From contig NZ_LMZQ01000001.1 of the NCBI RefSeq assembly GCF_001442625.1, positions 186,001-250,000 on the forward strand: a stretch of DNA of 64,000 nt, given 5' to 3'. The notes under the pieces were generated by a model. It saw only the letters and a program-made list of their open reading frames with translations, had not been told where the DNA came from and made no database searches. Below are positions 4,045 through 55,038 of this stretch, in pieces. Numbering within the stretch: position 1 is the first letter of the stretch; the number at the start of each line of letters is the position of its first letter. The position numbers were made by a program, and so were the translations under genes. Source of the DNA: Pedobacter ginsenosidimutans (GTDB lineage: Bacteria; Bacteroidota; Bacteroidia; Sphingobacteriales; Sphingobacteriaceae).

Positions 4045-4869
4045 TTTTTTTGAATGTTTTAAATACTTGCATATTTTAAGGCATGTTTGTCCAACAGAAT
4101 TGCTTCCTGAGACACGGCCACTTAATCTGAGTTTAGATAGCTGATCAGTTATGTATAAAAGATCTACGGTAAGCTTAGAAATCAAGCTTTTGACAATAAC
4201 ATAAAACTAGAACTCAACTGAGGAACTGGCAAGTAGCAAAGGCTCAGGCGATGAATAGAAAGAGGTTTAATTTGATCAGAGGCTTTCCAAAATGAAAAGG
4301 GAGTAATTCTGGTTAAATGGTTAATTAATTGGATTAAAAGTGTTCTTGAATCGAACAGAGTGATTCCTGTGTTAGCGTTTTTTCTCATAAAAGTTATCTG
4401 GTTTGGATCAAAACTACTGTTATAGACCTAACCAAATGAGGGACATATCTTTCTAAAATGAGCGATAAAAAAGACAATTTTCTTGAATAAGGACGACTGT
4501 TGGAAATTTTGAATTTATTCTATCAATTTAATTCGGGAATATTTCGATAGAAGTTCCACTTTAAAATTTTTCAGCTATGGTGATTTCGTATACGATTTTT
4601 AAACAAAACATATCTTTTTGATTATCAATACAATGCTGGAGATTTGCTTAGCAATAATTATTTTAATAAAGTTTGAATGGTAATAGAGGTAAAAGTTGAT
4701 ACCGAGATTTCAGTGTACATATTTAAGTTCATCGGACAAATGCATTTTAATATATGATGCAAAAATTAATGACATTGGATTTTATAAATGATTTAGAGCT
4801 AGCATAAAGTCATTCAATGTTAATTTAGGAATAAAGTCCCTTAGCTGTTAATCTAACCAAGATCAATAA
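4045..4869. other. AT-rich intergenic region upstream of susC
   Basis: I see no convincing gene here. The open frame at 4182-4388 on the minus strand has no recognisable features and a basic, low-quality composition. The segment probably carries the promoter of the susC-susD operon in its left part and decayed sequence near the pseudogene on its right. Confidence 0.5.
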
Positions 4870-5231
4870 CTTATAAACTCAGAGATTGTATATGTTTATT
4901 TATGGACTAGTTGGTGTGTGCCATGTAGGGAATCTATGCCTGCCTCTCGTCAATTAGCCAAACAATTTTCAGGTAAAAGGGTTAGTTTCGTCTATTTATC
5001 TATAGACGAAAAATTCGATAGTTGCGAGAAAGCATCCAAAGAAGAAGACCTAGATTCCAACACCTATAGTTTTTTACTCCTAAACCCAAAAGAGTCGGGC
5101 ATTTTGAAGCTAATACAATTCAAGACCATACCTCGCTACTTGTTATTTGATAAAAATGGGAAATCGGTACATGAGAATGCACCGGACCGTCAAGTGCCGA
5201 ACTAAGTAAAATAATAAATAAATACTTATAA
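4870..5231 (+). pseudogene. TlpA/thioredoxin-like fragment, 5'-truncated and frameshifted
   Basis: From the stop codon at 4867 the frame reads LINSEIVYVYLWTSWCVPC, which contains the thioredoxin-fold WCxxC active site (WCVPC), and then ESMPASRQLAKQF and FKTIPRYLLFDKNGK, the usual cis-Pro and beta-hairpin region. A start codon before the CxxC motif is missing; only a GTG at 4918 is available, and it removes the first Cys. Near the 3' end the frame closes at 5205, but a one-base shift at about 5185-5187 restores PSSAELSKIINKYL and a stop at 5229-5231, a normal TlpA C-terminus. The gene therefore carries both a 5' truncation and a one-base deletion. It is probably the remnant of a TlpA-like thiol-disulfide oxidoreductase. 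Confidence 0.7.
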
Positions 5232-5359
5232 AATGTATAACTAATTTTTATAATAATACATTCAATAAGCCTATGAAAAACGAGTATCGAATATACGCTA
5301 TAAAGGAGGTGGACAGACGGTCAAAATAATATTTTAACTTCCAGAATGCCAATGCTTAT

Positions 5360-7774
5360 TTATTTCATTAGCCGAACCTGAAAGATATTTCCAATTTTAG
5401 TACCATCTATAGTCTGAAATTTGACTACAATATTTTTATTTAATAACTGGGCCGGTATCAAAAAATCCCTGGTGAAATATATATCTCCTTTCTCCCCGTT
5501 TAATCTAACGGTTTCGATTAACACATCATTAATGAGCACATCAAAGTTTCTGTTCTTTTCAGCACCATATAAAAGTACTTGTACTTTTCGTGCACTAAGA
5601 TCTTTATTATTTAGCTGATAACTAAACCATCCTGAGCCGGTTCGGAAATGATTTTCCCTGAAAATACCATTTTCTGTTTTTTCGCCTTTGAAATTATGGT
5701 CAGATTCAGGTTGTTGTTCACCAGTGTTCACCAAATCAACAGTCTCCTGCTCAAGTTTCATTTTCTCCATTTCGGCACGCTCAACGGCCTTTGACTTCTC
5801 CGGAAGATTTTCTAACGTTGAATATGGAAAATAAATTACATATCGCTTTTCTGAAAGACTGTAAAAAGGGACCAATTTCATTTTTTTATACTTCTGTTGC
5901 GCAATAATTGCATCTGCAGTAAATGATAATGGTGTATTACTTGTCGGTATTAACTTTGCAGCAAGTTCTGATTTATTTCCGCTGATTAAGGGAACTTGAT
6001 TTATAGGTAAAAGCTGGCCAGATGCAATATGCCCCATTCTGCTTCCATCGGCAGTTAAGTTTGACTGGCTTAGCGTATCCATCTCAGCGGCCAACACAAC
6101 GGGGCCATGTAAAAAAGAAACCCAGTCTGAACCATCAGGAATAAATTCAGCGGAGCTATGCATTGGTAATATCACCTTAACCAGATCCTCTGTAGACCAT
6201 AGACGGTCTACACTAACATAACCATTACCGAGATCTTTTACATCAATATTCTCACCATTGACCAAAATAGAAATTTTGCCATTTGTAACCCAGGATGGTT
6301 TACGGATATTCAAAGCAAATTTCTTTTTATTATTCAGCTTTAGCTTTATGGTGGTAAAATCCTGCTGAGGAAAATTGTTTTGCTGAATTAACGCAACTCC
6401 TTTTTCTTTCCAATCCAATTTTGAAGGAATGAACAAGTTAACGTAGATATCTCCAAGCGAGTTATGTGCGTAAATCAATTCTCCGTATTTACCATGATTT
6501 TCCAAACCAGAACCTACACAACACCAAAAACTTTCCTGATTTCTGGAATAGGTACGATAGTGACCAGGCCTCATTGGGGTAAAATAAACGAAGCCACCCT
6601 CACTTCTTTGGGATGTTAAAATATGATTATATAAAGTTCTTTCATAATAATCAATGTACTTACTTGAAGGTTCCTGCAAGAAGAGCTGCTTTGTTAGTTT
6701 GAGCATATTATATGAATTGCAAGTTTCCGGACCTTCGCGGGACTCAAGCATCAAGGAAAAATCCTTTGAGGGATTGAAATGTTCACGCACGCTGTTCCCA
6801 CCTATACTTACACTTCGGTGTTCAACCACGGTTTCCCAAAAAAATTCAGCTGCTCTTGATAGCTCGTTATTGTTGGATACTGATGCAATCTGCTGGAAGC
6901 CGATAACTTTAGGAATCTGAGTATTTGCATGTAAACCATTGAGCGCATCTTTTTTATCTTCCAGTGGTTTAAGAATAGACTGATCGGAGAATTGTAAAGC
7001 AAGTTTTAAGTATTTTTCATCGCTGGTGAGTGAATACACATTTGCAAACACTTCATTAAGTCCGCCATATTCACTTTTTAACATTGTTTGAATTTGCTGG
7101 TCTGTCAATTTGGATACCAAATTTATACACCAATCAGTTAGGCTGATGAGCATTTTCTTCGCCTTTAAATTGCCTGCGATTTCGTATGCATCATAAAGGC
7201 CGGAATATATTTTATGAATATTGTATAGGGGAACCCATTTGCCATTAAGGGATGAACTGGATGCTTTGATGTTACCATTTCGTATTTGGTTCCACATTTC
7301 CTTTCCTCCAGGAATGCCTGAGAGATAACCGTCGCCATTTTTTATCTGACATCTTTCAAGCTCATCAATTACATAGTCCAATTTCTTTTTCAACCTGATG
7401 TCTCGTGTTGATGCGTACATAAATGAAAGTGCCGAAACATAATGACCACATGTATGCCCATCAAGGCCCGTATTTTCCCAGTTTCCATATGAAGTTGCCT
7501 TTGGAATTAAACCAGATTCCCTAATATAGGGTGAGAGCAGTCTGTCTGCATCCAATGATAACATATAATTTTTATCAGTTAACTGGGCTTTTTCAAACGC
7601 GCTTTCAAGTAAACTTACCTCTTGAAACTTGTAGCCCTTTAATTTATCCTGACTAATTACAGCGGAAGAAAAGAAAGATAAAAAAACAAATAAAAGACAG
7701 GACTTTGTATCCAAATGAAAATTGTTTAATCTGAAGGTAATTGAATAATAATTTTTAATTGAGTTCATCCACAT
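5360..7774 (-). CDS. GH127 family beta-L-arabinofuranosidase-type glycoside hydrolase (exported)
   Basis: The 804-residue protein has a signal peptide (about residues 24-41; the ATG at 7774 or the in-frame ATG two codons on could start it) and the DUF1680/GH127 fold: NWENTGLDGHTCGHYVSALS near residue 97, then GPETCNSYN (E350, C352) and WCCVGSG (C418, C419). In the characterised enzyme HypBA1 the equivalent Glu and three Cys residues bind zinc and supply the cysteine nucleophile; all are present here. A C-terminal beta-sandwich (DUF4986/CBM-like) follows. The likely reaction is removal of beta-L-arabinofuranose from arabinan or hydroxyproline-linked glycans. The neighbouring SusC/SusD could import the product. 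Confidence 0.9.
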   Translation of the reverse strand: MWMNSIKNYYSITFRLNNFHLDTKSCLLFVFLSFFSSAVISQDKLKGYKFQEVSLLESAFEKAQLTDKNYMLSLDADRLLSPYIRESGLIPKATSYGNWENTGLDGHTCGHYVSALSFMYASTRDIRLKKKLDYVIDELERCQIKNGDGYLSGIPGGKEMWNQIRNGNIKASSSSLNGKWVPLYNIHKIYSGLYDAYEIAGNLKAKKMLISLTDWCINLVSKLTDQQIQTMLKSEYGGLNEVFANVYSLTSDEKYLKLALQFSDQSILKPLEDKKDALNGLHANTQIPKVIGFQQIASVSNNNELSRAAEFFWETVVEHRSVSIGGNSVREHFNPSKDFSLMLESREGPETCNSYNMLKLTKQLFLQEPSSKYIDYYERTLYNHILTSQRSEGGFVYFTPMRPGHYRTYSRNQESFWCCVGSGLENHGKYGELIYAHNSLGDIYVNLFIPSKLDWKEKGVALIQQNNFPQQDFTTIKLKLNNKKKFALNIRKPSWVTNGKISILVNGENIDVKDLGNGYVSVDRLWSTEDLVKVILPMHSSAEFIPDGSDWVSFLHGPVVLAAEMDTLSQSNLTADGSRMGHIASGQLLPINQVPLISGNKSELAAKLIPTSNTPLSFTADAIIAQQKYKKMKLVPFYSLSEKRYVIYFPYSTLENLPEKSKAVERAEMEKMKLEQETVDLVNTGEQQPESDHNFKGEKTENGIFRENHFRTGSGWFSYQLNNKDLSARKVQVLLYGAEKNRNFDVLINDVLIETVRLNGEKGDIYFTRDFLIPAQLLNKNIVVKFQTIDGTKIGNIFQVRLMK

Positions 7775-46187: not shown

Positions 46188-49100
46188 ATGACGATCTCAT
46201 TCATTGACATAAAATCCAGCCTAAACAAAGCATTCAGATTACTAAAACCTAAAAGAAACGATTTAAATATCTTCAAAAGTAATTTAAATACCCTGCTTGG
46301 ACACATCAATGAACAGGAAACTGAAGAACATGTAAAAATCCATCTCATGGATTTTCTAAAAAACACCTATTTCCATCCGCAGCACTTAGTAGCTACAAAT
46401 GGACGGACTGATTTTGTGATCCATACAGGTAATAATGCACAAACACCAGTAGCAGTTATGTTTGAAGTTAAGAAGCCTTCCAACAAGGCTGAGATGATTA
46501 CAAAGACCAATCTCAATGCGAGGGCAATGCATGAGCTAATATTATATTTCTTAAGAGAGCGGATCGACAAAAAAAATTTATCGTTAACCAGCTTGATCAT
46601 CACCAATATCTATGAATGGTATGTTTTTGACGCAGTTGCTTTTGAAAAGATATTTACCCAGAACAAAGATCTTCAGTCCGCATACCGAGAATGGAAGAAC
46701 GGCCAAAAAATCAGCACATCTACAGGGCTATTCTATAACGAGATTGTCAAACCATTTTTAAAGGAGCTTGATAAAGAGATTAGTTTTACCTTCTTTGACC
46801 TTAGAGATTTCCAAAAAAGCCTTAAGTCAAACGAACAAAAAAACGACACTAAACTCATTGCACTTTATAAATTCTTCACCCCGATCAACCTGTTAAAACT
46901 ATCGTTTACCAATGACAGTAATTCGTTGGATAAGGGCTTCTTCGCGGAACTTCTACACATTATAGGACTGGAAGAAGTCAAGGATGGAAGTAGAAAAGTG
47001 ATCGACAGACCACAACCAGCAAAACGAAATCCTGGGTCAATTATCGAAAATGCCCTAAGCATTCTGGAAGTCGAAGACTGCTTAAGAAAAGTTCCATCCA
47101 AGCTTCAGATCGGCGAAAGCCGTGAACAGAAATTATTGAACCTGGCCATTGACCTTTCTATTACTTGGATTAATCGCTTGCTATTTCTAAAATTACTAGA
47201 AGCGCAGCTACAAAAATATCACCAGGAAGATCAGAAATACCGGTTCTTGAATATCCAAACCATCAAGGATTATGATGAGCTTTACAAATTATTCTTTCAA
47301 GTTCTGGCGAAAAAATCAGTGGACAGACTACCTGCAGTTCGTGAAAAGTACAGATTTGTACCCTATCTTAACAGCTCCCTATTTGAAATATCTGAATTAG
47401 AAGATATCACCATTAAAATTAATGCACTTGACGACAATGTTGATATCCCTATATATTCGAATTCGGTATTAAGAAAAGGAAAGAGCAAAATAGAAGGCTC
47501 AACGCTAAATACCTTGAATTATCTGTTTGCCTTTCTTGATTCATATGATTTTTCTTCAGTAGGTAAAGAAGAAATACAAGAGGATAACAAAACCATCATT
47601 AATGCATCGGTACTAGGATTAGTTTTTGAGAAAATCAATGGTTACAAAGATGGCTCGATTTATACTCCAGGCGCGATCACTATGTATTTATGCAAAGATG
47701 TTATCAGGCGTTCTGTCGTTAAAAAATTCAACGACAATTATGGATGGAACTGTGGAACGATAGCTGATCTGAGAAACCATATTGCCGACAAGAGGAATTC
47801 GTGTGATGTACTAGAATTCAATATTGTTATTGATACCTTGCGACTTGCCGACCCAGCAGTGGGTTCAGGTCACTTTCTGGTATCAAGTTTAAATGAACTT
47901 ATTGCAATTAAGGCAGAACTCGGCATTTTTGCCGATCGGTATGGTAACAGAATTTCAGATGTGGATATAACCATAGCAAATGATGAACTAGTAGTCAACT
48001 ACATGCAGGGCCAGGATTTCTTTGATTATCAAGTCTTAACTGACTCAGAGGGTAAGTTCAAAGTTTCTCCGCAGATTCAGCGTATTCAAGAAGCCCTTTT
48101 CGACGAAAAGCGTAAATTGATTGAAAATTGTCTGTTTGGTGTTGACATTAATCCCAATTCGGTGAAAATCTGCCAATTAAGGTTATGGATAGAATTGTTA
48201 AAAAATGCCTACTATAAAGTCGGAGATGCCGCTACAGCCAATGAACTTGAAACCTTGCCAAACATCGACATTAACATAAAGCAGGGAAATTCTTTACTTA
48301 ATAAATACAGTCTAAAGGAAGATCTCTCCGATGTATTTAAAAAAAATAAATTTGGCGTTAAGGATTATCAATTAGCGGTGCAGCGGTATAAAGAGGCACC
48401 TAACAAGGAAGCTAAAGAAGATCTAAGAAATTTCATCAAAGAAATTAAAGCCAAGTTTCATGAAACAGTGAGCAATCGAGACCCTCGACGCAAAAGACTA
48501 TCTGAGTGGCGTGGGAAAAAGATACTTGCCGAATCGACAAATAATAGTCTTTTTGGACAAACAAAATCTCTGAAGGACATTGGAAAGGAAGTTGCGAAAT
48601 ATCAAAAAGAGATTGATAAAATTTCATTGGAAATCGCGGAAATAGAAAACAATACGCACTATAAAAATGCTTTTGAATGGCGCTTTGAGTTTCCGGAAGT
48701 GTTGGACAAGAATGGAGATTTCATAGGATTCGATGTCATTATCGGCAATCCCCCCTACATCCAGCTTCAGAAAATGGGATCAGAGGCGGATATCCTACAA
48801 CGACAGAATTATGATACATATGTACGAACTGGCGATATATATAGCCTATTTTATGAACAGGCTATAAACTTATTAAAGCCAGATTATTACTTTGGGTATA
48901 TTACCTCAAATAAATGGATGCGTGCCAACTACGGTGAAAGTACTCGAAAATACTTCTTAAAAAGTACGAACCCACTATCACTTATTGATTTTAGTGGCTA
49001 TCCAGTATTTGATTCTGCTACCGTAGATGTTAATATACTTGTCGCACAAAAATCCCCATATTTAAACGACACCCAAACTTGTCTTATACAGAAGAGTTTA

Positions 49101-49985
49101 ACAAGTCTAGAAAAATTGAGCGATTTTATTGAACAAAATACAAGTAAAAATGTCTTTAAGTCTGGCGGAAGTTGGGCTTTACTTTCATCAATCGAAAAGA
49201 GTATAAAAGAAAAAATAGAGCGCCTGGGAGTACCCCTGAAAGATTGGGATATCCAAATAAATTACGGTATTAAGACTGGCTTCAATGAAGCATTCATTAT
49301 CAATGAAGATAAGAAAAACGAGCTGGTTGCAGCCGACCCTAAATCTGCCGAAATTATACGACCGATTCTTCGTGGCAGAGATATCAAAAAGTATGACTTG
49401 AAATTTGGCAACCAGTGGATCATTAATACACATAATGGTAAAAAGGATAAAGGAATCAAAGCAATTGAAGTGCAACAAGAATACCCAATAGTATTTGACC
49501 ACCTCAAAACCTATGAGAAAGAACTTAATAAAAGATTAGATAAAGGCAAGCACTGGAGTAATTTACGTAACTGCGCCTATCTAGAAAGTTTTAATGAAGA
49601 GAAAATAGTTTGGATTGAACTTACTGATCGCCCAAATTTTGCCTTGGATCTTAAAGGATATTTTTTGAACAATACTATATTCTTTATGACTGGTAATCAT
49701 CTTAAATATTTACTGGGCTTTTTAAATTCAAGATTATGTGAATGGTATTTTGATAAAATCGCTGCAACTTCAGGGGCAGGAACAAGAAGATGGATAAAAA
49801 TGTACATAGATCAAATTTGTGTGCCTAAGCCAAATGATGTTATCGAATCAAAAATTAATCTGATCATTGATTCTCTTAATGCTAAGTTTGATGATAGCAT
49901 TTACAAGGACTTAAATCAATTAATTTACAATATTTTCGAACTTTCACCAGAAGAAGTTCAGTTAATTAATGATGCTGAATTGTAA
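46188..49985 (+). CDS. Type IIG restriction-modification enzyme (nuclease-methyltransferase-specificity fusion)
   Basis: The 1265-aa protein combines three activities. At the N-terminus a PD-(D/E)xK nuclease motif is formed by D75 and E93-V-K95. A gamma-type N6-adenine methyltransferase follows, with motif I DPAVGSG (from D555) and motif IV NPPY (854-857). The C-terminal part (about 975-1265) is a TaqI-like target-recognition domain. Eco57I/BREX-PglX-like methylases have this layout. A 29-bp inverted-repeat arm lies in the coding sequence at residues 975-985, exactly where the specificity domain begins, and a second specificity domain lies inverted downstream. The enzyme should both cut unmodified DNA and methylate the host. 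Confidence 0.93.
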   Translation: MTISFIDIKSSLNKAFRLLKPKRNDLNIFKSNLNTLLGHINEQETEEHVKIHLMDFLKNTYFHPQHLVATNGRTDFVIHTGNNAQTPVAVMFEVKKPSNKAEMITKTNLNARAMHELILYFLRERIDKKNLSLTSLIITNIYEWYVFDAVAFEKIFTQNKDLQSAYREWKNGQKISTSTGLFYNEIVKPFLKELDKEISFTFFDLRDFQKSLKSNEQKNDTKLIALYKFFTPINLLKLSFTNDSNSLDKGFFAELLHIIGLEEVKDGSRKVIDRPQPAKRNPGSIIENALSILEVEDCLRKVPSKLQIGESREQKLLNLAIDLSITWINRLLFLKLLEAQLQKYHQEDQKYRFLNIQTIKDYDELYKLFFQVLAKKSVDRLPAVREKYRFVPYLNSSLFEISELEDITIKINALDDNVDIPIYSNSVLRKGKSKIEGSTLNTLNYLFAFLDSYDFSSVGKEEIQEDNKTIINASVLGLVFEKINGYKDGSIYTPGAITMYLCKDVIRRSVVKKFNDNYGWNCGTIADLRNHIADKRNSCDVLEFNIVIDTLRLADPAVGSGHFLVSSLNELIAIKAELGIFADRYGNRISDVDITIANDELVVNYMQGQDFFDYQVLTDSEGKFKVSPQIQRIQEALFDEKRKLIENCLFGVDINPNSVKICQLRLWIELLKNAYYKVGDAATANELETLPNIDINIKQGNSLLNKYSLKEDLSDVFKKNKFGVKDYQLAVQRYKEAPNKEAKEDLRNFIKEIKAKFHETVSNRDPRRKRLSEWRGKKILAESTNNSLFGQTKSLKDIGKEVAKYQKEIDKISLEIAEIENNTHYKNAFEWRFEFPEVLDKNGDFIGFDVIIGNPPYIQLQKMGSEADILQRQNYDTYVRTGDIYSLFYEQAINLLKPDYYFGYITSNKWMRANYGESTRKYFLKSTNPLSLIDFSGYPVFDSATVDVNILVAQKSPYLNDTQTCLIQKSLTSLEKLSDFIEQNTSKNVFKSGGSWALLSSIEKSIKEKIERLGVPLKDWDIQINYGIKTGFNEAFIINEDKKNELVAADPKSAEIIRPILRGRDIKKYDLKFGNQWIINTHNGKKDKGIKAIEVQQEYPIVFDHLKTYEKELNKRLDKGKHWSNLRNCAYLESFNEEKIVWIELTDRPNFALDLKGYFLNNTIFFMTGNHLKYLLGFLNSRLCEWYFDKIAATSGAGTRRWIKMYIDQICVPKPNDVIESKINLIIDSLNAKFDDSIYKDLNQLIYNIFELSPEEVQLINDAEL
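49111..49139 (+). repeat. Left arm of the inversion repeat (within the type IIG gene)
   Basis: The 29 bp match the reverse complement of 50816-50844 at 28 positions. The single difference (T at 49117, A in the other arm) is on the outer side. The arm encodes EKLSDFIEQN at the boundary between methyltransferase and specificity domain. Confidence 0.9.
49320..49367 (+). repeat. Inner inverted repeat within the active specificity domain
   Basis: These 48 bp are the reverse complement of 50588-50635 with one mismatch. They encode ELVAADPKSAEIIRPI in both specificity domains. The nucleotide identity is much higher than in the flanking parts of the two domains, which points to gene conversion or selection as a second exchange site. 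Confidence 0.85.
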
Positions 49986-50764
49986 ATAAACTGTCTTTCA
50001 TCTTCCGTGATATCATATAATGAATTTACAATATTGTTAATTTCAATTTCTGTTTGAATTTTCAAGAGTGGCTTTTCTTTTAATTTTTCAATTAATACTA
50101 ACAATCTATCTGCCACATTCTGTGAAATTTTCGGTATAGGAAGTTGTTCAACGAACATTGGTTTGTATTCAAAATATCCACCATTACGCGTTACCCCCAG
50201 CTGTTTTATATAAAAGTCGGCTAGTTGTGAATTTAATATTGCTATTAGATAGATTTGGTCTGTAGCAATAAAAGATGAAGGTGCATTGATGTAGTAGCCT
50301 TCATCAACTAAAGCAAACTGTCCTTTTAATGCTAAATTTCCCCATGCAATTTTTTGTTTATCAAAATCCTCAAAATATGCAACGTTATCTTGTATTTCAA
50401 ACCATTTATAAGACCCTGGCTTCCGTCCAGTAGGTTCATTATTGTTTCTAGGCCGGAGATTATCATAATCTGTTTGTAAATGCGCCTTAATTGCAGGGTA
50501 TTGGTCTATATTTATACCTCGTCTAGTAAAAATTATCCACTTGTTTTCCCAGCTAAATTGATATCTTTTAATGTTTTTGCCAGATAAAATCGGTCGTATA
50601 ATTTCGGCAGATTTAGGGTCGGCTGCAACGAGCTCATTTTTCTTTTTGTCATCTACTATGAAAGCCGCGTTAAAACCTGTAAGAATACCCCTATAAATAT
50701 TGATATCCCATTCTTTCAGTGGTGTACCTATTGCTTCAATCTTTGTTTTAATTTGCTGCTCCAT
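49958..50764 (-). CDS. Silent alternative specificity (TRD) cassette for the type IIG enzyme
   Basis: The frame encodes 268 aa of a TaqI-like target-recognition domain homologous to the last 245 residues of the type IIG protein (shared TPLKEWDI/VPLKDWDI, ELVAADPKSAEIIRPIL) but with a different middle. Homology continues upstream of the ATG as SDFIEQNQSSFKFSTSESW up to the inverted-repeat arm, where a TAG precedes it, so it has no methylase part and probably no expression in this orientation. Tail-to-tail it overlaps the type IIG gene by 28 bp. Inversion between the arms would fuse it in frame to the methyltransferase (about 1270 aa). Confidence 0.88.
   Translation of the reverse strand: MEQQIKTKIEAIGTPLKEWDINIYRGILTGFNAAFIVDDKKKNELVAADPKSAEIIRPILSGKNIKRYQFSWENKWIIFTRRGINIDQYPAIKAHLQTDYDNLRPRNNNEPTGRKPGSYKWFEIQDNVAYFEDFDKQKIAWGNLALKGQFALVDEGYYINAPSSFIATDQIYLIAILNSQLADFYIKQLGVTRNGGYFEYKPMFVEQLPIPKISQNVADRLLVLIEKLKEKPLLKIQTEIEINNIVNSLYDITEDERQFIYNSASLIN
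50588..50635 (-). repeat. Inner inverted repeat within the silent specificity cassette
   Basis: Partner of 49320-49367 (47 of 48 positions identical as reverse complement). Confidence 0.85.
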
Positions 50765-50815
50765 AGAACTTAAAATAATCCAACTTTCGGATGTAGAAAA
50801 CTTAAATGAAGATTG

Positions 50816-50844
50816 ATTTTGTTCAATAAAATCGCTCTATTTTT
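50816..50844 (-). repeat. Right arm of the inversion repeat
   Basis: Partner of 49111-49139 (28 of 29 positions). It lies 51 bp before the in-frame start of the silent cassette and 76 bp before the invertase gene. Its outer part carries TAG where the left arm has TTG, so the stop would stay outside after an exchange in the inner part of the repeat. Confidence 0.9.
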
Positions 50845-50920
50845 ACATACTTTTTTTGTCTATTAAAAATTGTCAGAACTTCGTTTTTTTTTAATCAATC
50901 GCAAAAAGCACTTAAAATTT

Positions 50921-51532
50921 ATGACTTACGGATATATTCGGGTTAGCACAGACAAACAAACAATTGAAAATCAAAGATTTGAAATCAATCAGTTCGGAAT
51001 TAAAAATGAATTATTAGTTGACAAATGGATAGAAGAAACTATTAGTGGGTCAAAACAGGTTGACGACCGAAAATTGGGCAGCCTTCTAAAGAAGATGAAA
51101 AAAGGAGATATCATGATTTGCTCAGAACTTTCACGCCTTGGCAGGAATTTATTGATGATAATGGGAATTTTAAATGAATGTATGAACAAAGACATACAAG
51201 TTTGGACAATTAAGGATAACTATCGTTTGGGGAGTGATATAAGCTCCAAGGTATTGGCATTTGCATTTGGACTCTCGGCAGAAATTGAACGCAACCTAAT
51301 TTCTCAACGAACAAAAGAAGCACTTGCACGAAAAAAAGCAGAAGGTGTCATTTTGGGACGCCCTAAGGGCAGAAAGTCTGCTAAAACCAAACTCTCTGGT
51401 CAGGAACGACGTGTTCAAGAATTGAGGGACAAAAATGTATCATACAGTGCCATCGGAAGAATATTGGGCGTTCATCGCTTGACAGTATCAAGTTTCATAA
51501 AAGAAGGCCGAGTAATTGCATCCGCAGAATGA
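50921..51532 (+). CDS. Mpi-family serine DNA invertase
   Basis: The ATG at 50921 (MTYGYIRVSTDKQ) gives 203 aa and the right N-terminus; an upstream GTG/TTG-type extension to 50870 is unlikely. The catalytic Ser is S9. The resolvase core (SELSRLGRNLLMIMGILN, VWTIKDNYRLGSDISSKVLAFAFGLSAEIERNLISQRTKEAL in parts) closely resembles the Bacteroides master invertase Mpi, which flips promoters genome-wide. A C-terminal HTH (YSAIGRILGVHRLTVSSFIK) binds the site. Its location next to the inverted repeats argues that it flips the specificity cassettes at 49111-50844. Confidence 0.93.
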   Translation: MTYGYIRVSTDKQTIENQRFEINQFGIKNELLVDKWIEETISGSKQVDDRKLGSLLKKMKKGDIMICSELSRLGRNLLMIMGILNECMNKDIQVWTIKDNYRLGSDISSKVLAFAFGLSAEIERNLISQRTKEALARKKAEGVILGRPKGRKSAKTKLSGQERRVQELRDKNVSYSAIGRILGVHRLTVSSFIKEGRVIASAE

Positions 51533-51861: not shown

Positions 51862-52266
51862 TTAAACTAATTCCAGTTCGTAAGGGTTGGAAATCGTTTT
51901 CTTTCCAAACCGTTTCAACAATTCTAATTCATTAGATTCGTTTATATGCTCTTTTTTCAATATCTCCTTAACTGCCGGTTGTTTTAAACCAGGAATACGG
52001 GTTTGAAAAAACGGCCACAAGCTATCATTCGTATAAACTTTATTTAGGTTTGAAAACCCCGCAATGTGATTATAGTTACCCCCATTTTTTTTGAAATCCT
52101 CAGTGTATTTAAATTCCCAAACACCGTTCTCACAATGCAATGTTCCGATAACCAATTTATCTACACGAAGTTCAAATGTAGCATTTTCGCCTTTTGGTAA
52201 AAGAACTTCAACGTCAGCATGGGGTTCCTCTGATTTTGAAAAAAGTTGCTTTAAATAATTTATCAT
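51862..52266 (-). CDS. HipS-like protein (HipA N-terminal domain, stand-alone)
   Basis: The 134-aa protein aligns by eye with the N-terminal subdomain of HipA: VIGTLHCENGVWEFKYTEDF, then LWPFFQTRIPGL and ELELLKRFGKKTISNPYEL. In the HipBST toxin systems this domain is a separate protein, HipS, that neutralises the HipT kinase. Here it follows the kinase gene with a single base between stop and start, the reverse of the hipB-hipS-hipT order. It would most simply be the antitoxin. Confidence 0.82.
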   Translation of the reverse strand: MINYLKQLFSKSEEPHADVEVLLPKGENATFELRVDKLVIGTLHCENGVWEFKYTEDFKKNGGNYNHIAGFSNLNKVYTNDSLWPFFQTRIPGLKQPAVKEILKKEHINESNELELLKRFGKKTISNPYELELV

Positions 52267-52267
52267 A

Positions 52268-53299
52268 TTATAACTCCCTTATTCTTTTAAATCTTTCTTT
52301 AACAATATACTCTATTAATTTACATCTTTCTAGGATAAAAAAAGGAAAAAATTCTTTTTTTAACATTTCCAAGATGCGCTCTTCATTATCCAATGAAGAC
52401 ATATCTCTTATAAGAACGTGATATTCGCCCTTATAGTTTTTAAGATATTTAATTAATCCAAAATGATTAATTCCACTATTATTTTCTATACTGATTCTTG
52501 GACAGGCATCTTGAATGTAATGTTCAACTTTTTTTCCATTCTGGCTCATAGCCCGAAGATTCTTCTCTATCCAATCGTCACTACTATTCCATAACAAACC
52601 TCTTGCCGAATCATAAAGTGGCGCAAAACGTGGGGGCGTAGCTAACTTTTTGGCATTAGTTATGACGCCCCAATTATAAAAGTGCCTATCATTGTTACCA
52701 ACCAGCCCATCGTAGATAATCATTTTAACAATGTCGGTCATAAGTACGGTGCAATTTAATTTGAATTTGGCAGCTAATGCTTTTTCTATAAATTGAAAAG
52801 TAAACAGTTCCCGCGAAGTTTTCTTTTCATTAGCAATCTCTGCAGCCAAATCCATATCATTTAAGTATTCCCCACAAATTTCTGCACCATGGGTAAGAGT
52901 ATCACTGCTTTTCAAAAAGTAACGGCTCAGGAAACGGATTTGCCCATTTATCCAATATAGTTCGACTTCATTCATGTTAAGTCCTAAAACTTGACCGATC
53001 CTATTGATCATAAATTCGATAACCGATTCATGGGGATACCATTTTTCTGCAGTTTTCGCGATATACGGAATCCAGGTTTTGGGATTCTTTTTATGAATGC
53101 CGTTATCAGGAGCATACCGGTAAACCCTAATAAATTGTTTTGGTGCATCGCCATCAAGTAACCTATCTTCTACATAATAGTGCTTCTCCTTTAAAGTCTC
53201 AATTATCCTTTCATTTAAAAAAAGGCCCGAACAATGCATGGATGTTTCAGTACGGAGTTTTGGATGGGCGGCTTTCACTTTAGATAGTATTGACTGCAA
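52268..53299 (-). CDS. HipA/HipT-like serine-threonine kinase (toxin candidate)
   Basis: The 343-aa protein lacks the HipA N-terminal subdomain but keeps the kinase core: GLVGNNDRHFYNWGVI with the catalytic D204 (and N209), and PLYDSARGLLWN with the metal-binding D230. The N-terminal region (DGDAPKQFIRVYRY) is where a Gly-rich loop is expected. HipA-type toxins phosphorylate aminoacyl-tRNA synthetases or related targets to stop growth; the target here is unknown. No HTH (HipB) gene is found within 340 bp upstream. It sits in the defence island. Confidence 0.85.
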   Translation of the reverse strand: MQSILSKVKAAHPKLRTETSMHCSGLFLNERIIETLKEKHYYVEDRLLDGDAPKQFIRVYRYAPDNGIHKKNPKTWIPYIAKTAEKWYPHESVIEFMINRIGQVLGLNMNEVELYWINGQIRFLSRYFLKSSDTLTHGAEICGEYLNDMDLAAEIANEKKTSRELFTFQFIEKALAAKFKLNCTVLMTDIVKMIIYDGLVGNNDRHFYNWGVITNAKKLATPPRFAPLYDSARGLLWNSSDDWIEKNLRAMSQNGKKVEHYIQDACPRISIENNSGINHFGLIKYLKNYKGEYHVLIRDMSSLDNEERILEMLKKEFFPFFILERCKLIEYIVKERFKRIREL

Positions 53300-53640: not shown

Positions 53641-55038
53641 TCAAAGCCAAGAAACACCTTTTGGCATTTCAAGTCCGCGTGCCCTGAATACATTAAGACA
53701 AAGAATTTCTTTTTCATGTTCCCCCTTAACGGATTGGAAGTGACAGTAAACCTTGCGGCGATCACGCCCATCTCTTTCTTTTGCAAGCACAAAATGAAAT
53801 CTTTTTAGAATCCACTTTCTTTTGTCGTTTTCGATGGTAAATTCCTGACCGATTAAGCCTTTATAATGTGCTTGAAACTGATCAGTCTGATCAGCAAAAA
53901 TTGTCGAATAAATGTAGTTAGTTTTCGCGATGAAATCCGTAGAAAGCCCAGTGAACTGATCTGGATAATTAATAGTGAAGTAGGCAGAAATTTCTGCTGC
54001 TTTTTTCATAACTAGATTTCCGTGTTCCTCGTCGCTCACCTGACCCTTGGAACGACGATCCTTTAAATCATTGATCATTTTGGTGAGATCCTGCTCCAAC
54101 ATCGCCATGATATCACCATCAAGCTTTCGCTCTACCATATCATTAGCTAAAAATTCTAAATTTTCATCCCCTTCTGACAAATTTGAAATGTTGAGCTCTG
54201 GGATATTTGTCATTGGCACTCCGGTGAGCGCATTTTGATAATAAGTATAATTCACCTGAACTCCTTCATATTGCGAAGAAATTAGCGTATAAGCACAGAC
54301 TACGTTAAATAATTCCAGGTAAACATATAACTCTTTCCGGTCTTCATTTGACCTGATACAAATTAAGTGGCTGATTTCATTATCTACAGGCTTCCTGATT
54401 TCCTGAGTTAAATTGCAGATAATGACTTCCTCTGATTGTTCATCAAGTGCATATATTCGTTTTAACCTACTTTCGATATAACTTAATTCCAAGCCGCAAA
54501 AAGCATAATATTCAATCATGATTTTTTCCACCGCTAGTTTGAGCTTCGGTGTTATGATGAGTGGGTTTTCAGCCACAAGTTCATTCGGAACTTTGCTCTT
54601 TTCTTGAATCTTGATATTTCCGCTCTTTGCAGCCATAAGGGTTTCCTCCACACCATAATTCCGAACCATTTTTTTGAGCATTGCTTGGATTGCCTTCTCC
54701 ATTGGTCCACTAACACTGATGCCCTCAAGACCATTTTCTTGGATATTTTTAGTCAGAACTTGTTGGGGAATTATCTGTCCTTTCTGATCTGCTCTATATA
54801 TGTTCCCCTGGTCATCTTTGATTGCGAAATATTGCGCATTCGCAAACCCTAGAAAATAAAGTTGCATGTGAAGCACCTCTTTCAATATGGGGTCAAGATG
54901 GATTCCAAACTTTCTATTGCAAGATTTGCATATTAGTTTGCGACTTTGAAGCCGACCATTCAAACTATCAGGAATGATGTGTTCATTTGAACCGTCTAAC
55001 GTATTTGAACAAAAAAGGCAGTTATCTTTCATTTGCAA
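53641..55038 (-). CDS. HNH-type endonuclease-like protein
   Basis: The 465-aa protein starts with an HNH_5-like zinc finger: CLFCSN, NEHIIPDSLNGRLQ and LICKSCNRKFG supply the two CxxC pairs and the His-Ile-Ile-Pro catalytic core (an ATG two codons inside is equally good). The remaining about 400 residues are unlike anything I can name and may be an effector or sensor domain. Proteins of this type are frequent in phage-defence islands as nucleases. It is a single gene flanked by spacers. Confidence 0.75.
   Translation of the reverse strand: MQMKDNCLFCSNTLDGSNEHIIPDSLNGRLQSRKLICKSCNRKFGIHLDPILKEVLHMQLYFLGFANAQYFAIKDDQGNIYRADQKGQIIPQQVLTKNIQENGLEGISVSGPMEKAIQAMLKKMVRNYGVEETLMAAKSGNIKIQEKSKVPNELVAENPLIITPKLKLAVEKIMIEYYAFCGLELSYIESRLKRIYALDEQSEEVIICNLTQEIRKPVDNEISHLICIRSNEDRKELYVYLELFNVVCAYTLISSQYEGVQVNYTYYQNALTGVPMTNIPELNISNLSEGDENLEFLANDMVERKLDGDIMAMLEQDLTKMINDLKDRRSKGQVSDEEHGNLVMKKAAEISAYFTINYPDQFTGLSTDFIAKTNYIYSTIFADQTDQFQAHYKGLIGQEFTIENDKRKWILKRFHFVLAKERDGRDRRKVYCHFQSVKGEHEKEILCLNVFRARGLEMPKGVSWL

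Follow-up and report, generated by a model that had tools for sequence, protein, structure and literature searches.

A predicted invertible specificity cassette in a single-chain type IIG restriction enzyme of Pedobacter ginsenosidimutans, with an adjoining Mpi-family invertase

Introduction

Gene-altering programmed inversions reportedly include type II restriction-modification (R-M) systems among their targets. In a 2023 NAR survey by Milman, Yelin and Kishony, inversion between inverted repeats is said to swap part of a type II R-M gene with a spare encoded on the opposite strand. In type I R-M, invertible hsdS genes are known, for example from the cod/SpnIII system of S. pneumoniae (PMC4948785), and have been surveyed in REBASE (PMC7394358). 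Type IIG enzymes can be phase-variable by another route, as in Cj0031 of Campylobacter jejuni, which undergoes ON/OFF switching of expression (PMC4889913).

A tail-to-tail arrangement has been described for Pin17FIII of Prevotella intermedia 17F, where the methylase gene is separated by 24 bp from a 305-aa reverse ORF that is inactive by itself. The motif GGYGAB was assigned by cloning, GGNYAG and CCNYAG were left unassigned, and the authors proposed no inversion (PMC5608340). The Rikenella microfusus motifs CCGACY, CCRGAG and SCCAAB are also unassigned in that work.

Here we analyse a stretch of 64,000 nucleotides from P. ginsenosidimutans (the window; contig NZ_LMZQ01000001.1, positions 186,001 to 250,000), in which a type IIG gene, a reverse-strand spare recognition domain and an Mpi-family invertase gene follow each other. 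Based on sequence comparisons, the locus is very probably an invertible specificity cassette of a single-chain type IIG R-M enzyme. It shares silent specificity segments and inverted repeats with invertible hsdS, and would also share site-specific inversion, target switching and the division into two half-specificity modules. While hsdS encodes a separate specificity subunit serving the M and R subunits, recognition, methylation and cleavage are here assigned to one chain, whose recognition domain is contiguous. In comparison with Cj0031, also a phase-variable type IIG enzyme, a target swap is predicted in place of ON/OFF switching. Since inversion in type II R-M has reportedly been described already, the locus is a further example of a known phenomenon. 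The original prediction, which considered a compact type IIG version with its own Mpi-like invertase to be less known, therefore holds only in part: the survey had reportedly already named type II R-M as an inversion target.

The enzyme and its two recognition domains

The gene at 46188-49985 (forward strand) encodes a protein of 1265 residues, the currently expressed form of the enzyme. The product matches the PADLOC REase_MTase_IIG model from end to end (residues 3-1263, E 3.6e-277) and contains the Pfam domains DUF7149, DUF7814, Eco57I and TaqI_C. A PD-ExK-like nuclease motif is present (D75...E93-x-K95), together with the motifs of a gamma-class m6A methylase: motif I, DPAVGSGHF, at position 555 and motif IV, NPPY, at position 854. 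The full-length match bears out the assignment to type IIG that had been made earlier, with a predicted nuclease, gamma-class m6A methylase and recognition domain on a single chain.

The product has a distant similarity to PglX (82.8 bits in NCBIfam), which could indicate a BREX PglX or a type I hsdS phase-variable system rather than a type IIG enzyme. The PglX cut-off is 500 bits, however, which leaves the protein well outside that family, and the type IIG model covers its full length. A type I system consists of separate HsdS, HsdM and HsdR proteins, whereas nuclease, methylase and recognition domain are found here on one chain. This alternative has next to no chance of being correct.

The expressed recognition domain (TRD A) occupies 49113-49985 and includes the TaqI_C region (Pfam, 2.8e-17). 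The silent spare domain (TRD B, 49958-50836, reverse strand; TaqI_C 1.3e-16) is placed tail-to-tail with it and is 40% identical to TRD A, in agreement with the second, different specificity domain that had been proposed for the other strand. Its frame has no stop codon from 50836 to 49961, reading through the right arm of the repeat described below. In the structure predictions, from which rows from plasmid records were left out, the AlphaFold model of TRD A has a pLDDT of 84.6 and matches CamA and M.BseCI in Foldseek searches with a TM score of 0.7. The TRD B model (pLDDT 80) matches CamA, M.BseCI, MmeI and BpuSI with TM scores of about 0.5. Both models resemble the DNA-reading parts of these enzymes, the spare less closely.

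Inverted repeats and the invertase

The two domains are enclosed by a 29-bp inverted repeat, IR1. The left arm (49111-49139, forward) is located inside the gene, where it encodes LSDFIEQN, and the right arm lies at 50816-50844 (reverse). As originally predicted, the arms are reverse complements at 28/29 positions; the single difference is a T/A at 49117, on the outer side. The arms give exactly two matches in the window at ≤3 mismatches, against 0.00 expected from shuffles, and at the same threshold the 6.5-Mb genome contains no IR1-like site beyond the two arms. A second inverted repeat, IRm, was overlooked earlier. It is an exact 42-nt pair, VAADPKSAEIIRPI, which includes CGACCGATT, with one copy in TRD A (49326-49367, forward) and the other in TRD B (50588-50629, reverse), at the same offset and in the same frame in both domains. 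A matched pair of a third repeat, IR2 (GGA[G/C]GATTTT), is absent from the window.

The inverted repeats bound a segment that gives sensible products in both orientations. If IR1 is used, the predicted invertible segment spans 49119-50836, and inversion in silico at or inside 49118 produces an open ORF of 1269 residues, matching the in-frame methylase of about 1270 residues that had been expected. Inversion at the IRm pair likewise results in 1269 residues. An inversion that includes the mismatch at 49117 introduces a TAG and shortens the protein to 976 residues. With a crossover at the AG of TTGAGCGATTTT, placed at 49119-49120 from relatives, this outer TAG would never enter the gene; the mapping in relatives thus agrees with the earlier suggestion that the mismatch leaves the TAG outside.

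The gene of an Mpi-family serine DNA invertase (50921-51532, forward strand, 203 residues) begins with an ATG located 76 bp outside the right arm, as had been noted; an alternative TTG start is found at 50870. The protein scores 333 bits against the NCBIfam Mpi equivalog NF009949 (cut-off 272), which confirms the family, and consists of an N-terminal Resolvase domain with the catalytic Ser9 (YIRVS) and a C-terminal HTH_38 domain (Pfam). It is the sole copy of its kind in the genome. Mpi of Bacteroides fragilis, a global promoter invertase, belongs to the same equivalog family. Unlike that enzyme, the window gene adjoins its predicted target, which is a coding sequence, and the genome offers no other sites at the threshold given above.

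It could be argued that the spare domain remains from a duplication or domain exchange and is decaying, the repeats being leftovers, and that no inversion occurs at present. A single orientation was assembled in this strain, and degenerate cassettes do exist among the relatives: L184-L189 have neither spare domain nor invertase, and L195 is scrambled. In the window, however, the spare frame and the invertase are both intact, and the arms are nearly identical though the domains they enclose have diverged to 40%. Together with the retention of the cassette across phyla, the flipped pairs among relatives and the frozen codons of the repeat sites, all described below, this makes a relic very unlikely.

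The cassette in other genomes

Searches covering the genus, GTDB contigs, two further genera and plasmids detected the cassette in some 50 genomes and plasmids besides this one. The 54 non-redundant cassettes have the same order of methylase, recognition domain and reverse spare domain, with the repeats at the same place, and most contain homologous IRm repeats. An Mpi-family gene is present within the fetched DNA in 51/54 cassettes (median identity to the window invertase 67.5%), pointing away from the cassette in 15 and towards it in 36. The hosts are mostly Bacteroidota, and the cassette is also found on Lactococcus plasmids. Other labels are Treponema, Parasutterella, Longilinea, a Methanomicrobiaceae archaeon, a planctomycete and a Campylobacteraceae bacterium; several of these records are metagenome bins. 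The finds in viral contigs, only one enzyme relative and 4/59 Mpi loci carrying such cassettes, do not point to a phage origin.

The cassette is found on two methylase bodies. One is the long single-chain IIG type present in the window; the other is shorter and in many loci has a helicase gene upstream. L082, L083 and L090 have the cassette on the shorter body, with a large helicase gene in front of the methylase. This suggests movement of the module between different R-M architectures. The layout published for Pin17FIII looks homologous; its body is helicase-associated as well, unlike the long DUF7149 type of the window. The R. microfusus homologue of Pin17FIII (L090) has the full cassette, with a spare domain and an Mpi-family invertase.

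Inverted states and the crossover point

The flips described here are between separate records rather than inside one culture, and the window strain is represented by one assembly. The inverted orientation, which the original prediction leads one to expect in related genomes, is present in three near-identical locus pairs. In a Bacteroides pair (L190/L191), the outer flanks agree at 198/200 and 200/200 positions, and the spare domain of one locus is the expressed domain of the other (160/160 nt). In two Lactococcus plasmids (L113/L114), the only such pair found when both orientations were sought among near-identical plasmids, the flanks agree at 196/200 and 200/200 positions and the domains are swapped (487/490 nt). 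Between L034 of B. oleiciplenus and L181, the flanks are 96-97% identical and an 852-nt segment is inverted at 97.9%. L034 and L082 have the same two domains with their places exchanged (85.7% over 1760 nt), on differing methylase bodies. The L194/L195 pair was not counted, because L195 is scrambled and possibly an assembly artefact. This cassette (G153 contig 17, ~4689-6529) has no invertase, and its spare domain contains a 250-bp segment, located between the IRm and IR2 positions, that is inverted without having changed place.

The position of the exchange can be read from L184 (2968-4298), which is 99.9% identical to L186-L189 from several Bacteroides genomes apart from a 1331-bp inversion. 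This inversion joined IR1 (AATTTG-AG-CGAT) to the methylase site AATTCC-AG-CCAT, and its products place the exchange within AG(C). It breaks the methylase, in a locus that contains neither spare domain nor invertase, and apparently reflects an off-target exchange of IR1 with an AG site present by chance. In 53 loci, the identity between the arms of a locus jumps at the crossover point from 16-58% to 98-100%. Agreement between the arms stays at background up to position -2, rises to 88% at -1 and reaches 98-100% over the four positions starting with the A, the profile being anchored on AGC, which forces the first three of these four.

A competing explanation attributes the inversion to homologous recombination of the RecA type, or to gene conversion, acting on the repeats, with the Mpi gene as a bystander that serves other sites. 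The products expected from homologous recombination at the repeats are similar. IRm and IR2 sit in conserved protein motifs, the inner identity extends to 150-310 nt in some cassettes, and, according to a passage of PMC5903667 that cites Coyne 2003, Mpi of B. fragilis acts globally on distant sites. The sharp onset of identity at one position in 53 loci argues against this explanation, as do the invertase adjoining the cassette in 51/54 loci and the lack of a further IR1-like genomic site at ≤3 mismatches. Moreover, the sites joined by the inversion between 99.9%-identical loci share just AGC and a few flanking bases, which is insufficient for homologous recombination. Inversion by this route is improbable.

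In the mechanism that we favour, the Mpi-family invertase would bind the two IR1 sites and exchange strands at the AG of TTG-AG-CGATTTT. The segment of about 49119-50836 would flip, so that the silent spare, which has no promoter, takes the place of the expressed recognition domain. The product would be an in-frame enzyme of 1269 residues with the same nuclease and methylase and, presumably, another DNA target. As cleavage and modification share one recognition domain, both would change together, and cells of one strain would protect and attack different DNA sequences. With its complete anatomy and wide distribution, the cassette would be an instance of one recombinase altering the restriction and the methylation of a single protein at the same time. 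Through the flipped relatives, the mapped crossover and the codon-frozen sites, the phase-variable type IIG enzyme has gone from a guess to a mechanism that can be tested directly.

Codon conservation and recognition modules

Three places in the recognition domain are conserved as DNA: IR1 (TTG-AG-CGATTTT), IRm (CGACCGATT) and IR2. In 98 recognition domains, the strongest synonymous-codon conservation among 135 columns forms three clusters at these sites, in counts uncorrected for sequence relatedness. The IR1 cluster contains Ser AGC in 91/92, in cassettes that were partly found through the IR1 site itself. The IRm cluster contains Arg CGA (90/98) and the IR2 cluster Glu GAG (63/66), each with neighbouring codons. 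The GTPLKDWD motif between IR1 and IRm is equally conserved in the protein, but its codons vary freely. In homologues that lack both the spare domain and the invertase, Lys mostly occupies the Arg position of IRm and the IR1 and IR2 motifs are absent, a contrast that is only qualitative, as the control set is small and consists partly of cassette remnants. The copies of IRm and IR2 might be kept identical by gene conversion instead of the invertase.

Cutting the recognition domain at IR2 defines two modules, v1 and v2. Among between-locus pairs, which are not independent, 474 share one module (at least 75%) and not the other (<35%), while 12 share both; the 11 clusters of v1 and 59 of v2 are found combined in 77 ways. 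IR1, IRm and IR2 appear to delimit two recognition modules, which are freely reassorted between species. The expressed and spare v1 modules of a locus fall into the same cluster in 0/46 loci, against 11.0 expected (none of 20,000 shuffles). The v2 clusters are never the same within a locus either, a result that alone is not significant at most thresholds. Modules that are never shared fit a device whose purpose is to offer two different targets. In R. microfusus (L090, 6146-9506), the v1 module of the expressed gene is interrupted, the spare domain being intact, and the identity of the two copies at IR1 extends over 310 nt.

The chances are evenly balanced that the Mpi-linked recognition domain is a combinatorial machine, in which v1 and v2, three codon-embedded sites and one invertase that recognises them generate up to four specificities by inversion. 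In such a machine the amino acids at IR1, IRm and IR2 would be dictated by the DNA sites, new modules would be acquired horizontally at the same sites, and the window, with IR1 and IRm, would be a reduced form with two states. The clade of the window (with L003, L031 and L043) has no IR2 pairs, and its v1 and v2 stay together. The TRD-A type is expressed in the window, L003 and L043, and is the spare in L031. The window should be a two-state switch. Different crossover dinucleotides at IR1, IRm and IR2, each pairing only with its twin, were considered and not adopted, only IR1 having been mapped.

The P. intermedia 17F motifs GGYGAB, GGNYAG and CCNYAG look like three of the four combinations of {GG, CC} x {YGAB, NYAG}, a combinatorial-looking set that the multi-site reading, if true, would explain. 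Two exchangeable modules, if real, would constitute natural half-recognition domains for contiguous DNA targets and could account for methylation motifs of gut and oral bacteria that are still unassigned. A multi-site, two-module description is absent from the reviews searched, and the bipartite, multi-site architecture may be new.

Neighbouring genes

A HipA-like pair, composed of a Couple_hipA ORF and a HipA_C ORF, is located directly downstream of the invertase on the reverse strand (51862-53299) and matches the PADLOC candidate PDC-M03A/B. The adjacent gene (53641-55038, reverse strand) encodes a 465-aa protein with an N-terminal HNH_5 endonuclease domain. The pair and the HNH_5 protein possibly form a small defence cluster.
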